Shown here one piece after another: positions 37,009-43,099 of a stretch of DNA of 64,000 nt (position 1 is its first letter; each line of letters opens with the position of its first letter). The stretch covers positions 62,001 through 126,000 of the forward strand of contig CANGEP010000001.1 in the NCBI GenBank assembly GCA_947452905.1. The letters run 5' to 3'. Made by a program: the position numbers and the translations under genes. The DNA is from Bacteroidota bacterium. Its GTDB lineage: Bacteria; Bacteroidota; Bacteroidia; Chitinophagales; Chitinophagaceae. The notes beneath the pieces are model-generated. The model was given only the letters and a program-made list of their open reading frames with translations. It had not been told where the DNA came from and made no database searches.

Positions 37009-37079
37009 GGTCCTGTGGCCGAGTGGCTAGGCAGAGCTCTGCAAAAGCTTCTACAGCGGTTCGAATCCGCTCGGGACCT
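37009..37079 (+). tRNA. tRNA-Cys (GCA)
   Basis: A full cloverleaf can be drawn: acceptor GGTCCTG/CGGGACC (37009-37015, 37072-37078), D stem GCC/GGC, anticodon stem GAGCT/AGCTT around the loop CTGCAAA (anticodon GCA), T arm AGCGG-TTCGAAT-CCGCT, and discriminator T at 37079 as expected for cysteine. 71 nt; CCA is not encoded. A terminator-like hairpin that opens structured element A follows within 10 bases. Confidence 0.97.
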
Positions 37080-37084
37080 CGATA

Positions 37085-37258
37085 CAAAGCCTGTCACGAA
37101 AGTGACAGGCTTTTTTCATTCGAGACAGCGACGAAAGCTCGCTTTCGTGAGCTGTTGAGAATGAAAAAAGACAAACAAACACCTTGTGTTTGTTTGAAAG
37201 GCTTTGGGTAAAGCGAGATAGCCGAAGCGGAAGACAATGCGCAGCATTGGCTATCGCT
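37085..37258 (+). ncRNA. Candidate structured RNA, tRNA-linked element, copy A
   Basis: Core 37085-37206 (122 nt) aligns without gaps to 42900-43021. Helix 1: AAGCCTGTCAC/GTGACAGGCTT (37087-37097, 37102-37112) with GAAA loop and T run. Helix 2: TTTTTTCATTC/GAATGAAAAAA (37111-37121, 37159-37169), enclosing ACAGC/GCTGT and ACGAAAGC/GCTTTCGT (37131-37138, 37141-37148). Helix 3: CAAACAAACAC/GTGTTTGTTTG (37172-37182, 37186-37196). An outer pairing CAAAGCCT/AGGCTTTG (37085-37092, 37199-37206) would compete with helix 1. Helix 4 beyond the core: GATAGCC/GGCTATC (37217-37223, 37249-37255). Five paired positions differ in a compensatory way from copy B. The role is unknown; transcript, terminator complex or REP-like repeat are all possible. 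Confidence 0.6.
37087..37116 (+). terminator. Intrinsic terminator of tRNA-Cys (helix 1 of element A)
   Basis: Perfect 11-bp stem AAGCCTGTCAC/GTGACAGGCTT with GAAA tetraloop, followed by six T (37111-37116). It starts 8 bases after the tRNA. Confidence 0.85.
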
Positions 37259-37350
37259 TAAGATAGATTGCGCAGCATTGGCTATCGCTTGAGATAGCTG
37301 GCGCAGCATTGGCTATCGCTGAAGATAGCTGGCGCAGCATTGGCTATCTG
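37231..37350 (+). repeat. Four tandem copies of a 31-bp hairpin unit
   Basis: Units at 37231-37259 (29 bp), 37260-37290 (31), 37291-37321 (31) and 37322-37350 (29). Each contains GCGCAGCATTGGCTATC. Copies 2-4 begin with AGATAG, so GATAG(C) and (G)CTATC inside a unit can form a small hairpin; copy 1 instead pairs with the helix-4 left arm at 37217-37223. There are no spacers, so this is not a CRISPR array. From 37351 to 37401, up to the FAD-oxidoreductase start, nothing further was recognised. Confidence 0.9.
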
Positions 37351-37401
37351 ATTTTGTGGCCCCATAAGTTTTCCCTAATTTAAATTATCAAAACCCTGTT
37401 G

Positions 37402-39255
37402 ATGAAGCATTTAACCTTGGGTATAATTTTATGGGCCATTCATTGCCTTGGATTACAAGCGCAACCTTACCAAAAAATTTTGGAAACCGATGTTTTAGTA
37501 GTAGGTGGAACAGCAAGTGGGATATGTGCAGGTATTCAATCGGCTAGATTAGGTATGAATACTTTAATTATTGAATCTACCCCTTGGCTAGGCGGTATGC
37601 TAACTTCTGCTGGGGTATCTGCTTTTGATGGCAATGATGCCATGCCTGCAGGAATTTTTGGAGAATTTAAAAAGCAATTAGCCCTTCACTATGGTGGTGA
37701 AAAAAAACTATCCACTGGATGGGTTAGTAATACTTTATTTGAACCTCATGTGGGAGATAGTATTTTTAAAAGTATGGCTCGAAAGGAAAAAAAATTAACA
37801 GTAAAATATAATTGTGAGCTAACCAAACTTGATAAAGACGGCCATCAAATTAAGGGACTTATATGTTATGATAAAAAAAGTCATCAATCTATTTTAATTC
37901 ATGCAAAAAGATATGTTGATGCCACAGAATTAGGGGATGTATTAGCGGCGGCCTCTCTTGGCTATGATATTGGCATGGAGGATAATGAACAAACCCATGA
38001 AAATGTAAATAAGTCTGGGGCAAATGGTATCATTCAAGATATTACTTATGTAGCTATCTTAAAAGATTTTGGCAAGCCACAACCTATAATAGCAAGGCCT
38101 GTAAATTATGATTCTTTAGAATTTGACGCCAGTAATAGTAATTTTTATTTCAATACTTTTTTAAAGAAGCCAACAGTGGATGCGAAAACGATGTTGAACT
38201 ATGGTAAACTTCCTAATAAAAAATACATGCTCAATTGGCCCATTTATGGGAATGACACATATTTAAATGTGATTGAAAAAACACCCGCCGAAAGAGAACT
38301 ATTATTAGAAAAAGCCAAGCAACAAACAGTAAGGTTTATTTATTTTATTCAAAAAGATTTAGGGTTTTCTAATTTATCCTTGGCGGACGATGAGTTTCCT
38401 ACCACCGATAAATTAGCATTGTACCCATATTACAGAGAATCTAGAAGAGTTCAGGGGAAAGTACGCATGATGGTGCAACATATTTCAACCCCTTTTGATA
38501 CCCAGCAAGCATTATATAAAACAGGTATTGCAGTAGGGGATTATCCTATCGATCATCATCATAAAAAAAATAAAGAGGCACCGCAGCATTTAGATTTTTA
38601 CCCGGTACCCTCTTTTAATATTCCTTTGGGTGCAATGATACCAAAGGAGGGAGGTAATTTAATTATTGCGGAAAAGTCAATCAGCGTTTCTAATATTGTA
38701 AATGGCACTACAAGACTACAACCCTGTGTGATGCAAGTTGGGCAAGCCGCTGGATTATTAGCGGCACTTAGTATTAAAGAAAAAACAAATCCTGAGAATG
38801 TATCAGTTAGAAAAACACAATCTTTTTTATTAGAGGCAGGGGGCTATATTATGCCTTATAAAGATGTACCCATCGGAAGCCCTTATTTTAAAGCCATTCA
38901 AAAAATGGGTGCTACTGGATTATTAAAAGGAGTAGGTAAACCAAGTGGATGGGCCAATGCTACTAATTTTTATCCTAATAATAAGGTAAGCCTATCTGAA
39001 TTTTTAGAAACTTGGCGTCAGAAATTTCCAGATTCAATTTCGTATACCCATCAAGAAATGACGCTAAAAGATGCCTTGTATTTTTCCCGTCAGCTTCAAA
39101 ATAAAAATAAAGATTTTAAAAAATCGTGGTATCAAATTGGCTTGAATAACTTTGATTGGAATCGCCCCATTTTACGTTACGAGCTTGCAGCTATATTAAA
39201 TGAGTATGCTGTTTTTTCGGTCTTTAACGTTGATTTGTATGGGGATTTAAAATAA
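37402..39255 (+). CDS. Secreted FAD-dependent oxidoreductase (FAD_oxidored family)
   Basis: Start at ATG 37402; a TTG directly before it is less likely. Residues 1-21 form a signal peptide (LGIILWAIHCLGLQAQ), so the enzyme works in the periplasm. TDVLVVGGTASGICAGIQSARLG is an FAD-binding Rossmann motif (core GGTASG), followed by ESTPWLGGMLT. The middle has RESRRVQGKVRM, and GTTRLQPCVMQVGQAAGLLAAL near residue 440 is the C-terminal FAD contact. The last 120 residues are a small extra domain. Members of this family occur in many Bacteroidota sugar-degradation loci, but the substrate is unknown and no glycosidase is adjacent. Confidence 0.85.
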   Translation: MKHLTLGIILWAIHCLGLQAQPYQKILETDVLVVGGTASGICAGIQSARLGMNTLIIESTPWLGGMLTSAGVSAFDGNDAMPAGIFGEFKKQLALHYGGEKKLSTGWVSNTLFEPHVGDSIFKSMARKEKKLTVKYNCELTKLDKDGHQIKGLICYDKKSHQSILIHAKRYVDATELGDVLAAASLGYDIGMEDNEQTHENVNKSGANGIIQDITYVAILKDFGKPQPIIARPVNYDSLEFDASNSNFYFNTFLKKPTVDAKTMLNYGKLPNKKYMLNWPIYGNDTYLNVIEKTPAERELLLEKAKQQTVRFIYFIQKDLGFSNLSLADDEFPTTDKLALYPYYRESRRVQGKVRMMVQHISTPFDTQQALYKTGIAVGDYPIDHHHKKNKEAPQHLDFYPVPSFNIPLGAMIPKEGGNLIIAEKSISVSNIVNGTTRLQPCVMQVGQAAGLLAALSIKEKTNPENVSVRKTQSFLLEAGGYIMPYKDVPIGSPYFKAIQKMGATGLLKGVGKPSGWANATNFYPNNKVSLSEFLETWRQKFPDSISYTHQEMTLKDALYFSRQLQNKNKDFKKSWYQIGLNNFDWNRPILRYELAAILNEYAVFSVFNVDLYGDLK

Positions 39256-39283
39256 TCCAATCGCTTTCTTGTATTTTTGCATT

Positions 39284-39670
39284 ATGAAGCATTCTCAAAC
39301 TATTGGTATCCTACTTTGCCTTTTCTTATTTTATTGTACCACACAACCTTTGGTTTTTATCGAAAGTAAAAATTGGGTTATCACTGGGTGGCAAACTGCA
39401 GGAAGTAGTTATGGGCAACCGGGTAAATTCTTGGCTTATTTCGGGGGGTTAGCCATTTTGTTTTTTGCGCTCCCTTTTATTTGGGCTAAACGATTCAATA
39501 TGGCTTTTGCTGCTTTATTGTTAGCATGGTCTTTTAGAAATTTTTTGATATTATCTACTTGTCAAATGGGCGAGTGCCCTCAAAAACAATGGGCACTGTA
39601 TGCTTGCATTTTCATTTCTTTCGGCATTTTAATAATGACTTTTTTGCCAAAAATTAAAATTCCAAAATAA
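39284..39670 (+). CDS. Small integral membrane protein, function unknown
   Basis: 128 residues starting at ATG 39284 (MKHSQTIGILL); the frame opens at 39269 but the extra five residues are unlikely. Four hydrophobic segments are visible: residues 7-25, 49-66, 70-88 and 103-121. A WVITGWQTAGSSYG loop follows the first span. No family recognised. A TATTTTTG box lies only 4 bases before the ATG, so if it is a -7 element the message would be leaderless or the box is accidental. Confidence 0.7.
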   Translation: MKHSQTIGILLCLFLFYCTTQPLVFIESKNWVITGWQTAGSSYGQPGKFLAYFGGLAILFFALPFIWAKRFNMAFAALLLAWSFRNFLILSTCQMGECPQKQWALYACIFISFGILIMTFLPKIKIPK

Positions 39671-39671
39671 T

Positions 39672-39703
39672 AAAAAAGCCTCCTTAAATTGGGAGGCTTT
39701 TTT
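39672..39703. terminator. Bidirectional terminator between convergent genes
   Basis: AAAAAAGCCTCC (39672-39683) and GGAGGCTTTTTT (39692-39703) form a perfect 12-bp stem with an 8-base loop. A and T runs on either side serve both the rightward membrane-protein gene and leftward rocD. Confidence 0.9.
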
Positions 39704-39711
39704 ATTATATA

Positions 39712-40950
39712 TTATTGAATGTGTAATTTTTCTAGTGCTTTTCCAATAATAGTAACCGCTTCGTTTATTTGCTGCTCATTAATAATTAAAGGAGGTGCAA
39801 ATCTAATTTTATCTCCATGAGTAGGCTTTGCTAATAGGCCTAAATCTTTTAAATGTAAACATAAGTCCCAACTAGCATCAGGATTATCATGTTTTATTAC
39901 AATAGCATTTAATAATCCCTTGCCGCGAATGGTGGTAACAAAAGGAGAATGTAAATCGGCGATCCCTTTTCTTAATAGGGCACCCATTTTGGTAGCATTG
40001 TCAGCCATGTTTTCGCTCTTTAATACTTCTAAAGCTTTCATTGCTACGGCGCAGGCTAATGGATTTCCACCATAGGTTGAACCATGTTCTCCTGGTTTTA
40101 TTTGTAGCATAATCTCATCATCTGCTAAGATAGCGGCCACAGGCATTGTACCTCCACTTAAAGCTTTTCCTAAAATCAAAATATCGGGTCTAACAGCTTC
40201 GTGATCACAAGCAAGCATCATTCCGGTTCTTGCTAATCCAGTTTGTATTTCATCTGCAATAAATAAAACATTGTGTTTCGTGCACAATTCACGAACGCCT
40301 TTTAAATAACCATCATCAGGTATTACAACACCTGCTTCACCTTGAATAGGCTCCACCATAAAAGCCGCAACGTTCTTATCTTGTAATTCTTTTTCTAAAG
40401 CGACTAAATCATTATAAGGAACTAAGCCAAACCCAGGCATGAAAGGTCCAAAACCTTTATAACTACTTGGGTCTGTAGAAGAAGAAATAGCAGCTAAAGT
40501 GCGACCCCAAAAATTACCATCAGCAAAAATTATTTTAGCTTCATTTTCGGCGATACCTTTTACAGCATAACCCCATCTCCTGGCTAATTTAATGGCCGTC
40601 TCACCACCTTCCACACCTGTATTCATGGGAAGTACTTTGTCATAGCCAAAATATTCGGTGATGTATTTTTCATAGGTGCCTAATAAATTATTATGAAAAG
40701 CACGAGAGGTTAAAGTGAGTTTACTTGCTTGCTCTTGCAATGCTTTAATAATCGCAGGATGACAATGACCTTGGTTGACAGCAGAGTAACCACTCAAAAA
40801 GTCAAAATATTTTTTACCATCAATGTCATATAAATACACACCTTCTCCTTTTTCTAAAACCACCGGAAGGGGATGATAGTTATGTGCGCCGTATTGGTTC
40901 TCTAAATCTAAATAATGTTGTGCATTAGCACTAAGGGTATGCGATGTCAT
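39712..40950 (-). CDS. rocD: Ornithine aminotransferase
   Basis: PLP enzyme of class III that converts ornithine and 2-oxoglutarate to glutamate semialdehyde and glutamate, linking arginine and proline metabolism. The N-terminus ([23 protein letters not shown]) is typical of ornithine aminotransferase. [15 protein letters not shown] contains the PLP-ring aspartate, LGKALSGG the Schiff-base lysine, and [15 protein letters not shown] the phosphate contact. 412 residues, full length. It stands alone with its own terminator. Confidence 0.94.
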
Positions 40951-40999
40951 GATTGACTTTTTAAAGTAAAATTAAAAGGAGTTCAAAAAATAGGGTGGG

Positions 41000-41018
41000 T
41001 AAAAGATACTTACCCCAA
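41000..41018. other. Small inverted repeat before rocD
   Basis: GGGTAA and TTACCC separated by 7 bases, 50 bases upstream of the rocD start. It could be an operator or a leader hairpin; nothing else in the 187-base gap is clear. Confidence 0.25.
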
Positions 41019-41137
41019 GGGATGATTGAGTAAATCTAAGTTAGCAGCTAAAAAAGAGTGCTTTTTCATGGATCTAAGATAGTTTTTTTACTTTAAATTC
41101 CCATATTTTGGGCTTACATTCGCAGAAACATTCTCTT

Positions 41138-42151
41138 TTGAAACCCTTTGTTTCCATAGTTATCTTAAACTTTAATGGCGTTAAATATTTGCAAGAATAT
41201 TTGCCTTCAGTTTTGGCTACTCATTATGAAAATTTTGAAGTGGTTGTGGCCGATAATGGATCTTCAGATAATTCAATAGAAGTTTTAAAAAAAGAATTCC
41301 CTTCGGTTAAAATTTTGGAAAGTTTAACCAATGAAGGTTTTGCAGGCGGGTATAATTGGGCACTTAAATTAGTAAAGGCGGATTATTATGTTCTTTTAAA
41401 TTCGGACTTAAGGGTAAGTGCTAATTGGATTAGTCCCATGGTTGATTTATTAGAATCAAATCCATTAGCAGCAGCTTGTCAACCCAAATTGTTGGCACAA
41501 AATGCACCTACTTATTTTGAATATGCGGGTGCTTCGGGGGGGTGGATAGATAGTTTAGGTTATCCTTTTTCTCGTGGAAGAGTATTTGATGTATGTGAGC
41601 AGGATTTAGGTCAGTATGAGGATACAAATAAAGTATTTTGGGCATCGGGGGCTTCATTGATGATAAAGGCTGCGGTTTTTCATGAATTGAATGGCTTTGA
41701 TGCTAGCTTTTTTGCGCATCAAGAGGAGATTGATTTATGCTGGAGATTGCAATTAGCAGGTTATGAGCTTTATGTTTGTCCTGCATCTGTGGTATATCAC
41801 GTGGGGGCTGGCACCCTTCCAAGAGGAGGTCGTAAGGTTTTCTTAAATTTCAGGAATAATTTAGTGATGATGTGCAAAAACTTACCCTTGTCTGAATTGG
41901 CCTGGAAAATGCCATTAAGATTTGTTTTAGACGCAATTTCAGCCTGGAAAGGGTTACTTAGTGGGGATACCTACTTTTTTACGGCCATTGCGAAAGCTCA
42001 TTTTGCGCTTTTTGGCATATTAATTAGTGGCAAACTTAAGCGTAGCAAGGTTACAAGGTCGTTGGCTTCCTTGAATGGGGTATATAATGGATCTTTGGTT
42101 TTTCAATACTTCCTCAAAAAGAAGCAGTATTTTAATAAAATTGTGGAATAA
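41138..42151 (+). CDS. Glycosyltransferase family 2
   Basis: GT-A transferase of the rhamnosyltransferase-like subgroup. The start is taken as TTG 41138, giving MKPFVSIVILNFNG, a standard GT2 N-terminus; another TTG at 41108 would add 10 residues, and no suitable ATG exists. VVVADNGSSDNSIEVL, LLNSDLRV (DxD-type position) and GFDASFFAHQEEIDLCWRLQLAGY with the ED-type catalytic region are clear. The tail contains hydrophobic segments. 337 residues. It is a lone gene, 8 kb from the polysaccharide block. Confidence 0.88.
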   Translation: MKPFVSIVILNFNGVKYLQEYLPSVLATHYENFEVVVADNGSSDNSIEVLKKEFPSVKILESLTNEGFAGGYNWALKLVKADYYVLLNSDLRVSANWISPMVDLLESNPLAAACQPKLLAQNAPTYFEYAGASGGWIDSLGYPFSRGRVFDVCEQDLGQYEDTNKVFWASGASLMIKAAVFHELNGFDASFFAHQEEIDLCWRLQLAGYELYVCPASVVYHVGAGTLPRGGRKVFLNFRNNLVMMCKNLPLSELAWKMPLRFVLDAISAWKGLLSGDTYFFTAIAKAHFALFGILISGKLKRSKVTRSLASLNGVYNGSLVFQYFLKKKQYFNKIVE

Positions 42152-42177
42152 CACGTTCATTATTAAGAACTAGTTGC

Positions 42178-42185
42178 TATTTTTG
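42178..42185 (+). promoter_or_regulatory. Candidate -7 element of the 67-residue protein gene
   Basis: TATTTTTG matches TAnnTTTG and lies 18 bases before the ATG at 42204. No TTTG box was found at the right distance. Confidence 0.35.
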
Positions 42186-42203
42186 CGTCCGTAAATAAAT
42201 ACT

Positions 42204-42407
42204 ATGTCACAAGATTTACATCAACCAGAAGCTTCTAAAGATATTAACTCAAATTGGGTAACTTCATCTAGATTCTTATTTTACGTTACTCTTTTCTCTA
42301 TTCTTGCCTTAGTGGTAGGGAACTGTTCTAAAGTATTCACCAGTGGGTTTAAAAAACCTAACCCAGAAGTGCAAACTAGTTCTCAGTACAAGCCAGAATA
42401 TAAATAG
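42204..42407 (+). CDS. 67-residue single-span membrane protein, unknown
   Basis: Small protein with a polar N-terminal 22 residues, one hydrophobic span (RFLFYVTLFSILALVVG, about residues 23-40) and a polar, Lys/Pro/Ser-rich tail. No family recognised. A plausible -7 box, ATG start and typical spacing support it being real. A cysteine follows the span (GNCSK), but the long polar N-terminus argues against a lipoprotein. Confidence 0.6.
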   Translation: MSQDLHQPEASKDINSNWVTSSRFLFYVTLFSILALVVGNCSKVFTSGFKKPNPEVQTSSQYKPEYK

Positions 42408-42415
42408 AAAAAAAA

Positions 42416-42446
42416 TTTGTTTAAGAGTGCTGAATCCTTATTTTTG
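42416..42446 (+). promoter_or_regulatory. Consensus promoter of the tRNA-Gly/tRNA-Leu cluster
   Basis: TTTG (42416-42419), exactly 19 bases, TATTTTTG (42439-42446): a full match to the Bacteroidota housekeeping consensus TTTG-N19-TAnnTTTG. Transcription should start near 42452, about 20 bases before tRNA-Gly. Confidence 0.75.
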
Positions 42447-42472
42447 CACTCCTAAAAATAGTTCTTGTACAA

Positions 42473-42545
<73 letters not shown>

Positions 42546-42547
42546 CA

Positions 42548-42580
42548 AAAATCCCGAATTTCGGTTTGGGATTTTTTTTT
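42548..42580 (+). terminator. Intrinsic terminator after tRNA-Gly
   Basis: AAAATCCC (42548-42555) pairs with GGGATTTT (42568-42575), followed by T to 42580. Extra A-T pairs are possible inside the loop. Confidence 0.75.
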
Positions 42581-42595
42581 AAGTCTGTAACAGAC

Positions 42596-42899
42596 GCCTT
42601 GGTGGTGGAACTGGTAGACACGCAGGACTTAGACATTGTTCTTTGGATGAACAAAATTTGAGTGCACTTCGAGAAATTGAAGATGTAGAACTCCGTAAAT
42701 TCGGCGAACCCTTTTAAATGGGAATACCGAGCGAAGCCCGAAAGGGAACGTGTAGAGACTAGACACGGAGCACCTAAATCGAAAGATAAGGTGAAGGCAT
42801 AGTCCAGACTACAAACCGATGTAGGGTGGTGAAAACCATAGTAGTAAGAAAATCCTGTGGGCCGCAACGCCCGTGCGGGTTCGATTCCCGCCTGAGGCA
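42596..42899 (+). tRNA. tRNA-Leu (UAA) interrupted by a group I intron
   Basis: Exon 1 is 42596-42630 and exon 2 is 42849-42899 (86 nt spliced). Acceptor GCCTTGG/CTGAGGC with discriminator A; D stem GTG/CAC; anticodon stem CAGGA/TCCTG; spliced loop CTTAAAA, which gives anticodon TAA; long variable arm with stem GGGC/GCCC (42859-42862, 42869-42872), as required for a class II leucine tRNA; T arm GCGGG-TTCGATT-CCCGC. The intron sits between anticodon bases 34 and 35, the position used in cyanobacterial tRNA-Leu(UAA). Standard tRNA finders may miss or misreport it. Confidence 0.95.
42631..42848 (+). ncRNA. Group I intron (IC3-like) in tRNA-Leu(UAA)
   Basis: 218 nt, self-splicing type by structure. 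The 5' splice site follows a U (42630) that pairs with G in P1: C28-T29-T30 with G60-A61-G62 (42628-42630, 42660-42662). P3: CTCCGT/ACGGAG (42691-42696, 42765-42770). The R region at 42749-42774 and the S region at 42788-42804 give P7 as GACTA/TAGTC (42757-42761, 42800-42804), the guanosine site. The intron ends in G (42848), the omega-G. No endonuclease frame. The P1 loop contains an extra hairpin, TTGTTC/GAACAA. R and S resemble the Anabaena tRNA-Leu intron from memory. Confidence 0.92.
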
Positions 42900-43077
42900 C
42901 AAAGCCTCTCACGCAAGTGAGAGGCTTTTTTTATTTAAAGCAGCGTCACAAGCTTGCTTGTGTAAGCTGATGAAAATAAAAAAAGACAAACAAACACTTT
43001 GTGTTTGTTTGAAAGGCTTTGAGTAAGACCGGTATTTTGGGAAGACGACGAACAACGTGAGTCGTCAATCCAAAATA
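42900..43077 (+). ncRNA. Candidate structured RNA, tRNA-linked element, copy B
   Basis: Core 42900-43021 (122 nt) begins at the base after the tRNA-Leu discriminator. Helix 1: AAGCCTCTCAC/GTGAGAGGCTT with GCAA loop (42902-42912, 42917-42927). Helix 2: TTTTTTTATTT/AAATAAAAAAA (42926-42936, 42974-42984), enclosing CAGC/GCTG (42941-42944, 42966-42969) and CACAAGC/GCTTGTG (42947-42953, 42956-42962). Helix 3: CAAACAAACAC/GTGTTTGTTTG (42987-42997, 43001-43011). Outer pairing CAAAGCCT/AGGCTTTG (42900-42907, 43014-43021). Helix 4: TATTTTGG/CCAAAATA (43033-43040, 43070-43077), enclosing GACGAC/GTCGTC. Same architecture as copy A, with compensatory changes. Confidence 0.6.
42902..42932 (+). terminator. 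Intrinsic terminator of tRNA-Leu (helix 1 of element B)
   Basis: Perfect 11-bp stem with a GCAA tetraloop, then seven T (42926-42932), starting 3 bases after the tRNA. Confidence 0.85.
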
Positions 43078-43099
43078 AAGGATGTGAAAGGCTTTGAGT
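43010..43099 (+). repeat. Direct repeat TGAAAGGCTTTGAGT
   Basis: The 15-base sequence occurs at 43010-43024 (end of the element core) and again at 43085-43099, flanking helix 4. Both copies could pair with the CAAAGCC segment at the start of the element. The rest of the gap to 43138 shows nothing else. Confidence 0.85.

Follow-up and report, generated by a model that had tools for sequence, protein, structure and literature searches.

tRNA-linked structured repeats of Bacteroidota as candidate insertion cassettes

A 64,000-nucleotide (nt) stretch from a Chitinophagaceae bacterium (Bacteroidota; assembly GCA_947452905.1, contig CANGEP010000001.1, positions 62,001 to 126,000 of the forward strand; hereafter the window) contains two 122-nt elements, each located behind a transfer RNA (tRNA) gene. 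They belong to a family of repeats which are probably insertion cassettes, devoid of open reading frames (ORFs), targeted to the tails of tRNA genes, and equipped with a terminator of their own and a right end resembling the top half of a tRNA. The copies share a conserved fold of the tRNA-sense strand and are linked to tRNA genes, and the sequence to their right matches the acceptor strand and the T stem of the local tRNA. A minority is followed by a duplicate of the tRNA 3' end, some form tandem arrays, and one occupied site has two empty counterparts.

A conserved fold behind tRNA genes

The elements and their host genes are the following:

37009..37080, + strand: tRNA-Cys(GCA), host of element 1 (ARAGORN; RF00005, 58.5 bits)
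37085..37206, + strand: element 1, 122 nt, four-way junction (136.9 bits with covariance model R1)
37085-37092 paired with 37199-37206, + strand: closing helix P1 of element 1
37093-37106, + strand: hairpin A of element 1, GAAA loop
37109-37171, + strand: stem B of element 1, CUCG loop
37173-37195, + strand: hairpin C of element 1
42596..42899 (approximate), + strand: tRNA-Leu(UAA), split by a group I intron, host of element 2 (ARAGORN with introns)
42900..43021, + strand: element 2, 122 nt, laid out as element 1, GCAA and CUUG loops (137.3 bits with R1)

The original prediction held that the two elements align without a gap and differ at 19 positions, ten of which make up five compensatory pairs (offsets 8/21, 32/78, 36/74, 48/61 and 49/60), and that the loop of helix A changes from GAAA in element 1 to GCAA in element 2. 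Re-alignment bears out each of these points, provided that the offsets are counted from 0. The architecture is a four-way junction formed by the closing helix P1 and three arms: A (a hairpin), B (a long stem with two internal loops) and C (a hairpin).

A DNA search of the whole genome of the window revealed further copies beyond these two, and six copies are full-length. When these six are aligned, with one end column of gaps, 98.2% of the cells are paired, compared to 82.6% after shuffling, and double changes occur in 23 of the 46 pairs (shuffled mean 9.7, 0/500 as high). In alignment A4 (101 sense copies from 100 sources, E ≤ 5e-12), 96.0% of the cells are paired, against 68.9% in shuffles and 39.7–51.6% with slid partners, and double changes are seen at 45 of the 46 pairs; these values are those of related copies fitted to a covariance model whose structure derives from the same sequences.

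On the tRNA-sense strand, G-U outnumbers A-C by 177 to 15 in 115 copies, and by 58 to 7 in 33 distinct gapless copies, for which no model alignment is needed. This excess indicates that the tRNA-sense strand is the one that folds; it is compatible with a fold of RNA or of single-stranded DNA alike, and thus tells the strand, not the molecule. We favor the idea that the fold acts as RNA. The loops also recur: by hand count over the 115 copies, loop A is of the GNRA type in at least 56, loop B is CUYG in at least 105 and loop C is GNA in at least 74. The many additional copies and the excess of G-U over A-C support the selection on structure that had been claimed from two copies, as far as the folded sense strand is concerned.

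The search with the covariance model R1, which had been suggested as a check, showed that further copies exist in this genome and in others. In the 2.29-Mb genome of the window, ten sense-strand copies score above 49 bits (150 of 805 candidates scored). Nine of them have a tRNA gene at most 15 nt upstream (Cys, Leu-UAA, Leu-CAA, Arg-UCU, Arg-ACG, Arg-CCG, Ser-GGA, Lys and Gln), and one has no tRNA. Antisense matches of lower score at these positions are mirror signals of the sense copies, since the unit is nearly palindromic. At E ≤ 0.01, R1 matches 30 of 40 genomes, namely that of the window, 23 of 24 from the same genus and 6 of 15 from the same order. A second model, R2, was built from 101 copies and used at three levels, with the window genome included each time: in the family it matches 11 of 60 genomes (E ≤ 1e-4), and at E ≤ 1e-5 the counts are 66/396 for the order and 19/395 for the phylum. 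In these scans the best 59, 9 and 9 candidates per genome, respectively, were scored under stricter filters, so that absences are not firm and copy numbers per genome are minima. Within the genus, eight genomes match in the order scan at E ≤ 1e-5. A DNA pattern for the whole unit hit a single contig in a contig collection, CANKWR010000027.1, which belongs to a relative; near relatives of the window genome may be left out of that collection.

The linkage to tRNA genes is general. A tRNA gene ends at most 20 nt upstream of 92 of the 112 genus copies (in 71 of the 92 the ARAGORN end lies one base inside the element), and of 40 of the 43 copies in a second set, which comprises 36 copies from other genera (34 of them linked) and 7 from further genomes of the same genus. 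Among the loci of the phylum search that were not already numbered or re-used, the tRNA lies directly upstream of the element or array in 15 of 16, one of the 16 (L261) being the G113 place already numbered L231. These sets consist of the best-scoring loci and are not random samples; six copies with a Met tail and some others count as lacking a tRNA because ARAGORN called none there. The sense copies of the genus are 105–136 nt long, with one of 147 nt.

Most copies also begin with a hairpin that resembles an intrinsic terminator. In the window these hairpins are:

37086..37113, + strand: terminator-like hairpin and T run of element 1 (the 5' strand of P1 pairs alternatively with the 3' flank of hairpin A)
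37172..37196, − strand: hairpin C of element 1, terminator-like with a T run on the opposite strand
42901..42928, + strand: terminator-like hairpin of element 2
42987..43011, − strand: terminator-like hairpin of element 2, opposite strand

Both window copies show the GC-containing hairpin followed by a T run, and the 6.4-kb stretch contains 12 terminator-like sites, compared to 6.2 ± 2.5 in shuffles. The sense hairpin (A and its T run) is found in 106 of the 112 genus copies and in 40 of the 43 copies of the second set, and the opposite-strand one (C) in 56/112 and 23/43.

Right end, tail duplication and empty sites

Behind P1 come, in this order, GGTAAG, a segment that matches the acceptor, and a hairpin, H4 (typically GGATCA...TAATCC in relatives). 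When the segment is paired in one fixed register with the 3' strand of the local tRNA acceptor, 66.8% of the positions pair (95 of 115 copies usable, 68 non-redundant), compared to 50.6 ± 2.1% when segments are exchanged between copies (0/2000 as high) and 22.9–48.5% at ten other offsets. An earlier, register-free test gave a smaller excess (9.15 versus 8.11 ± 0.18). The left strand of H4 tracks base 62 of the T stem: where the tRNA has T, the hairpin has A in 11 cases, G in none and another base in 7; where it has C, the hairpin has G in 86, A in 10 and another base in 18, in a parse that skipped 23 of 155 copies, misread some, and hit a motif outside the T-loop in 5 of the 10 C/A rows. Rows of the same locus from several species are not independent, so the p values are indicative only. 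The motif GAACGAAGTGA of the right-end hairpins occurs at seven places in the genome of the window, all within 200 nt of a copy of the element.

The tRNA 3' end is duplicated in a minority of copies. A repeat of the upstream tail (at least 15 of 20 bases, at most 200 nt downstream) is present in 15 of 152 single copies, while 195 mismatched controls reach 14 at most. Exact matches to the upstream tail over 10 nt or longer are likewise found in 15 of 152, against 0.13 expected; in this test some tails hold a few spacer bases, and the tail of L072_601 is the end of the preceding unit.

In other genera, five loci (L216, L218, L219, L220 and L256) carry tandem arrays behind single tRNA genes. Between the units, which are near-identical save at L220, lies a duplicate of the tRNA 3' end running from the T-loop base A58 to the discriminator. 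Four units of 153 nt follow Arg-ACG, three of 159 nt follow Leu-GAG and two follow Pro-UGG; a further array is of Ser type, without a called tRNA, and another, behind Pro-GGG, has three units that differ by eye, two of them matched by R2.

One insertion can be compared with sites that lack it. At L226, in genome G298 from a different genus of the same family, a unit stands behind the Leu-GAG tRNA, and AATCCAGTCTCGGGCAC and a terminator come next; the insert measures 157 nt, repeat included. In the orthologous loci L239 and L240 (G455 and G460), the same tRNA end is followed by a terminator, 3–4 nt off register, whose 3' arm and flank are 73% and 72% identical to those of G298. L242, L245 and L252 are also empty, at 3–8 nt, with tRNA ends that differ. 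The comparison covered 16 loci, from which L238, L241, L246, L249 and L250 were set aside (no tRNA on the strand examined). In the genome of the window the Leu-GAG site is empty, while L116, L146 and L145, from relatives, carry an element before the same downstream gene, which may reflect gain or loss. As a separate observation, the AGAT of the L226 right hairpin fits the AATCT tails of L242, L243, L244, L245, L247 and L248, from other genomes of the same genus, rather than its own AATCC, perhaps a trace of its source locus.

The modules of the fold are conserved by locus to different degrees. For P1 and A, copies behind the same tRNA in different genomes are 0.731 identical, compared to 0.592 ± 0.013 when the tRNA labels are shuffled; the corresponding values are 0.584 versus 0.551 ± 0.010 for B and 0.497 versus 0.437 ± 0.012 for C. 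Here 12 unlabelled copies were left out, and five Met labels were assigned by hand from identical tails, with one more outside A4. B modules are at least 95% identical in 23 pairs that carry different tRNA labels: 10 pairs stand behind two different tRNAs and 13 have one copy labelled "none", one pair being a tandem at a single locus. The copies are thus mostly inherited at their own locus, and modules have been copied from one locus to another. L190, which has an Arg-like tail and no tRNA, shares 93% identity with L092, a copy from a different species that stands behind a tRNA-Met tail.

The right ends of the two window copies contain:

37207..37217, + strand: GGTAA then AGCGAG, right of element 1
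37218..37358, + strand: degenerate hairpin-unit repeats GCGCAGCATTGGCTATCGC... behind element 1 (read by eye)
43022..43032, + strand: AGTAAG plus ACCGG, right of element 2, at the acceptor-match site of other copies
43039..43071, + strand: right-end hairpin H4 of element 2, GGGAAG...CAATCC (read by eye and from relatives)
43084..43099, + strand: fragment resembling a second unit end, GTGAAAGGCTTTGAGT (read by eye)

In AGCGAG, the CGAG is complementary to the CTCG adjoining the acceptor end of tRNA-Cys, and the GCGCAGCATTGGCTATCGC repeats are probably remnants of right-end units. The acceptor match of element 2 is partial only; AATCC, with which the duplicated tRNA ends of relatives start, is kept, and GTGAAAGGCTTTGAGT possibly reflects an eroded tandem array. 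No tRNA-end repeat is found behind either window copy. Both right ends look eroded, so that the two copies have probably become fixed and are passed on at their present positions.

Insertion cassette or tRNA trailer

According to the reading we favor, the cassette would sit between a tRNA gene and the tRNA's own terminator, with a fold of about 105–130 nt in a whole unit of about 140–180 nt, its left edge directly after the discriminator base. Hairpin A and its T run would act as an intrinsic terminator, so that the tRNA into which the unit is inserted would stay terminated, as judged from the sequence. A read-through transcript would fold into the four-way junction, P1 with arms A, B and C, while GGTAAG, the mimic of the 5' acceptor strand, the T-arm-like hairpin and the duplicated tRNA 3' end (A58 to discriminator) would together form the top half of a tRNA. 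The unit itself would move, an enzyme acting on it in trans, and the tRNA-like right end may serve in processing or in mobilization.

The original prediction spoke of a functional RNA or a REP-like element that multiplies behind tRNA genes. The multiplication is supported by the tRNA linkage, the arrays with tRNA-end repeats, the near-identical B modules at different tRNAs and the occupied site with empty orthologues. A REP-like nature in the strict sense is not, for lack of a Y1 transposase in the window genome and because the units are far longer than REPs.

Several observations weigh against mobile cassettes. No repeat of the tRNA end (at least 15 of 20) follows 137 of the 152 copies, those of the window among them, and only four of the 15 copies that have one belong to this genus (L060, L137, L149 and L192). 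The locus-specific P1 and A imply that much of the history is vertical, and six listed genomes of the same genus give no R2 match at E ≤ 1e-5 in the order scan, with the best nine candidates scored in each. The L226 right hairpin fits its own T stem incompletely. The terminator at the start of the unit argues against much full-length transcript.

As for an enzyme, Y1_Tnp (PF01797) has no match in the window genome, while the control gave matches in 5 of 14 genomes. RVT_1 is absent from 9 of 11 carriers, the window genome included, and from 5 of 6 non-carriers; since it is absent from 14 of 17 genomes, a resident reverse transcriptase is not required, as far as this profile sees. Tyrosine recombinases occur in all 17 genomes, carriers and non-carriers, so that their presence is uninformative, and the center of the right hairpin shows no homology to the T-loop, which counts against a classical integrase.

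One alternative is a trailer owned by the host: an elaborate, vertically inherited terminator or small RNA, which would help tRNA 3' processing or bidirectional termination and spread rarely by gene conversion. We consider it possible, if rather doubtful. In its favor, P1 and A are kept by tRNA locus, sequences upstream of copies at the same tRNA match throughout the genus, and a terminator-like hairpin on the opposite strand is present in half of the genus copies (56/112) and in 23/43 of the second set. Against a trailer stand the duplicated tRNA ends and the tandem arrays, with differing units (by eye) in the array at L220, the patchy presence within the genus, the empty orthologous sites and the copies that have a tRNA tail only (L190 and L148).

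A bolder version of the insertion cassette, which we regard as unlikely, makes it a bacterial SINE-like parasite of tRNA genes. Its RNA would begin where 3' processing cuts the tRNA and end in a mimic of a tRNA top half, the 3' strand of which is the tail of the host tRNA itself; tRNA enzymes (RNase Z, the CCA-adding enzyme, perhaps RNase P) would mature it, and an enzyme acting in trans would copy it back beside tRNA genes, thereby duplicating the tail; the tyrT repeats of E. coli would be a distant case.

It is also conceivable, with a small probability, that the repeats are neutral quasi-palindromes in which template switching between the arms during replication produces compensatory changes, the fold not being selected. 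PMC8794818 describes such a mechanism and indicates that it can account for asymmetric pair frequencies in stems, and hairpin modules here do appear to be swapped as wholes. Template switching gives no evident reason why, on the tRNA-sense strand, G-U should prevail against A-C (177:15), is at odds with the recurrent loop classes, and leaves the matching to the acceptor and the T stem unexplained.

Direct repeats of tRNA ends are typical of tyrosine-integrase islands, and the cassettes might be attachment-site scars left by islands whose insertion at a tRNA T-loop was followed by the loss of their genes. Integrases are found in all 17 genomes tested, and integrated elements leave tRNA fragments, according to PMC9897764. 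A single fold of about 105–130 nt common to many tRNAs and a right-hairpin center without homology to the T-loop make this origin improbable, slightly more so than template switching. Finally, REP/BIME elements spread by a RAYT (Y1) transposase are also palindromic, intergenic and multicopy; given the Y1_Tnp result in the window genome and its control, and the unfitting length and tRNA linkage, this explanation is scarcely credible, and a RAYT origin was rejected as unlikely for the window genome.

Relation to known repeats and minor features

The original prediction knew of no named family with this layout, which does not hold: the tyrT (rtT) repeats of E. coli also end in copies of a tRNA 3' end. 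These are the 178-bp repeats of the tyrT/tyrV locus (rtT RNA, rttR; Rfam RF00391). Three of them, behind tyrV, end in TAATCC followed by the tRNA-Tyr tail (19 of 22 bases). As seen by eye, the tyrT-tyrV spacer of E. coli K-12 (L236) ends in the same way.

As in the cassettes, the E. coli units lie directly behind a tRNA gene, are arranged in tandem, are parted by a duplicate of the tRNA 3' end, beginning in the T-loop behind TA (TAATCC...), and encode a strand, GGGGAAGGAT, complementary to the tRNA tail. They differ in that they occupy one tRNA locus, with an encoded CCA, whereas the cassettes stand behind many isoacceptors, in that their units lack a T-run terminator at the start, and in that the fold of one unit shows no such junction. 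Of the 152 copies, 15 have, as in rtT, a unit that ends in the 3' end of the upstream tRNA (15/20 or better), and so do the five array loci; the two window copies do not. R2 does not match the E. coli tyrT locus (E up to 1), and the RtT covariance model has no match in 15 loci (cmscan, E up to 0.05), which give only tRNA and a few sub-threshold plastid or miRNA matches. The tyrT repeats are the closest known system, and the cassettes seem to work like them in principle, a likeness that stops short of family membership.

Other comparisons are looser. REP sequences are short hairpins of 20–40 nt. Like REP/BIME elements with RAYT, the cassettes are short, palindromic, multicopy and intergenic; they differ in their size (about 120 nt, well above that of a REP hairpin), in their tRNA linkage, in the tRNA-end duplication of some copies and in the absence of a Y1 transposase from the window genome. 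BIMEs are said in PMC2965389 to act as bidirectional terminators. A minority of the cassettes, not including those of the window, resembles integrative elements that use tRNA 3' ends and tyrosine integrases in having the tRNA 3' end as a direct repeat; the cassette units, of about 140–180 bp, are too small for an integrase gene, and their right end is not homologous to a T-loop. Integron cassette arrays (attC) also consist of small units with folded sites in tandem. The target of the present cassettes is, by contrast, a tRNA tail. In the open-licence literature on tRNA-linked repeats and structured RNAs of Bacteroidetes and on tyrT/rtT, we recognized no description of this family.

These results suggest that the tyrT/rtT repeats of E. 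coli have a phylum-wide counterpart, with its own conserved fold and local tRNA matching. If the cassettes move, they would be, to our knowledge, among the smallest insertion units, and the terminator that they carry would spare the host tRNA. Since both occupied and empty sites are available, their origin and direction can be tested with ordinary comparative genomics and RNA sequencing.

Four copies without a tRNA (L003, at 1155-1276 on its own contig C8, L125, L151 and L074) have a common upstream stretch like TTCCAAACTCGCTCCTATGGAGGCTA. The ORFs beside them look by eye like those of toxin–antitoxin or Fic-type systems.

In the whole window, only two tRNAs reach the gathering threshold of Rfam 15, and no other Rfam family does; a Chlorobi-1 hit at 42901-42988 was discarded, its 20.6 bits being far under the threshold of 50. 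The first ARAGORN run missed the intron-bearing tRNA-Leu(UAA), which was recovered when introns were permitted. Its group I intron matches RF00028 at 42631-42824 with 41.5 bits, under the gathering score of 50. Among seven orthologues from the same genus, five carry no intron flag and two (L097 and L130) do.

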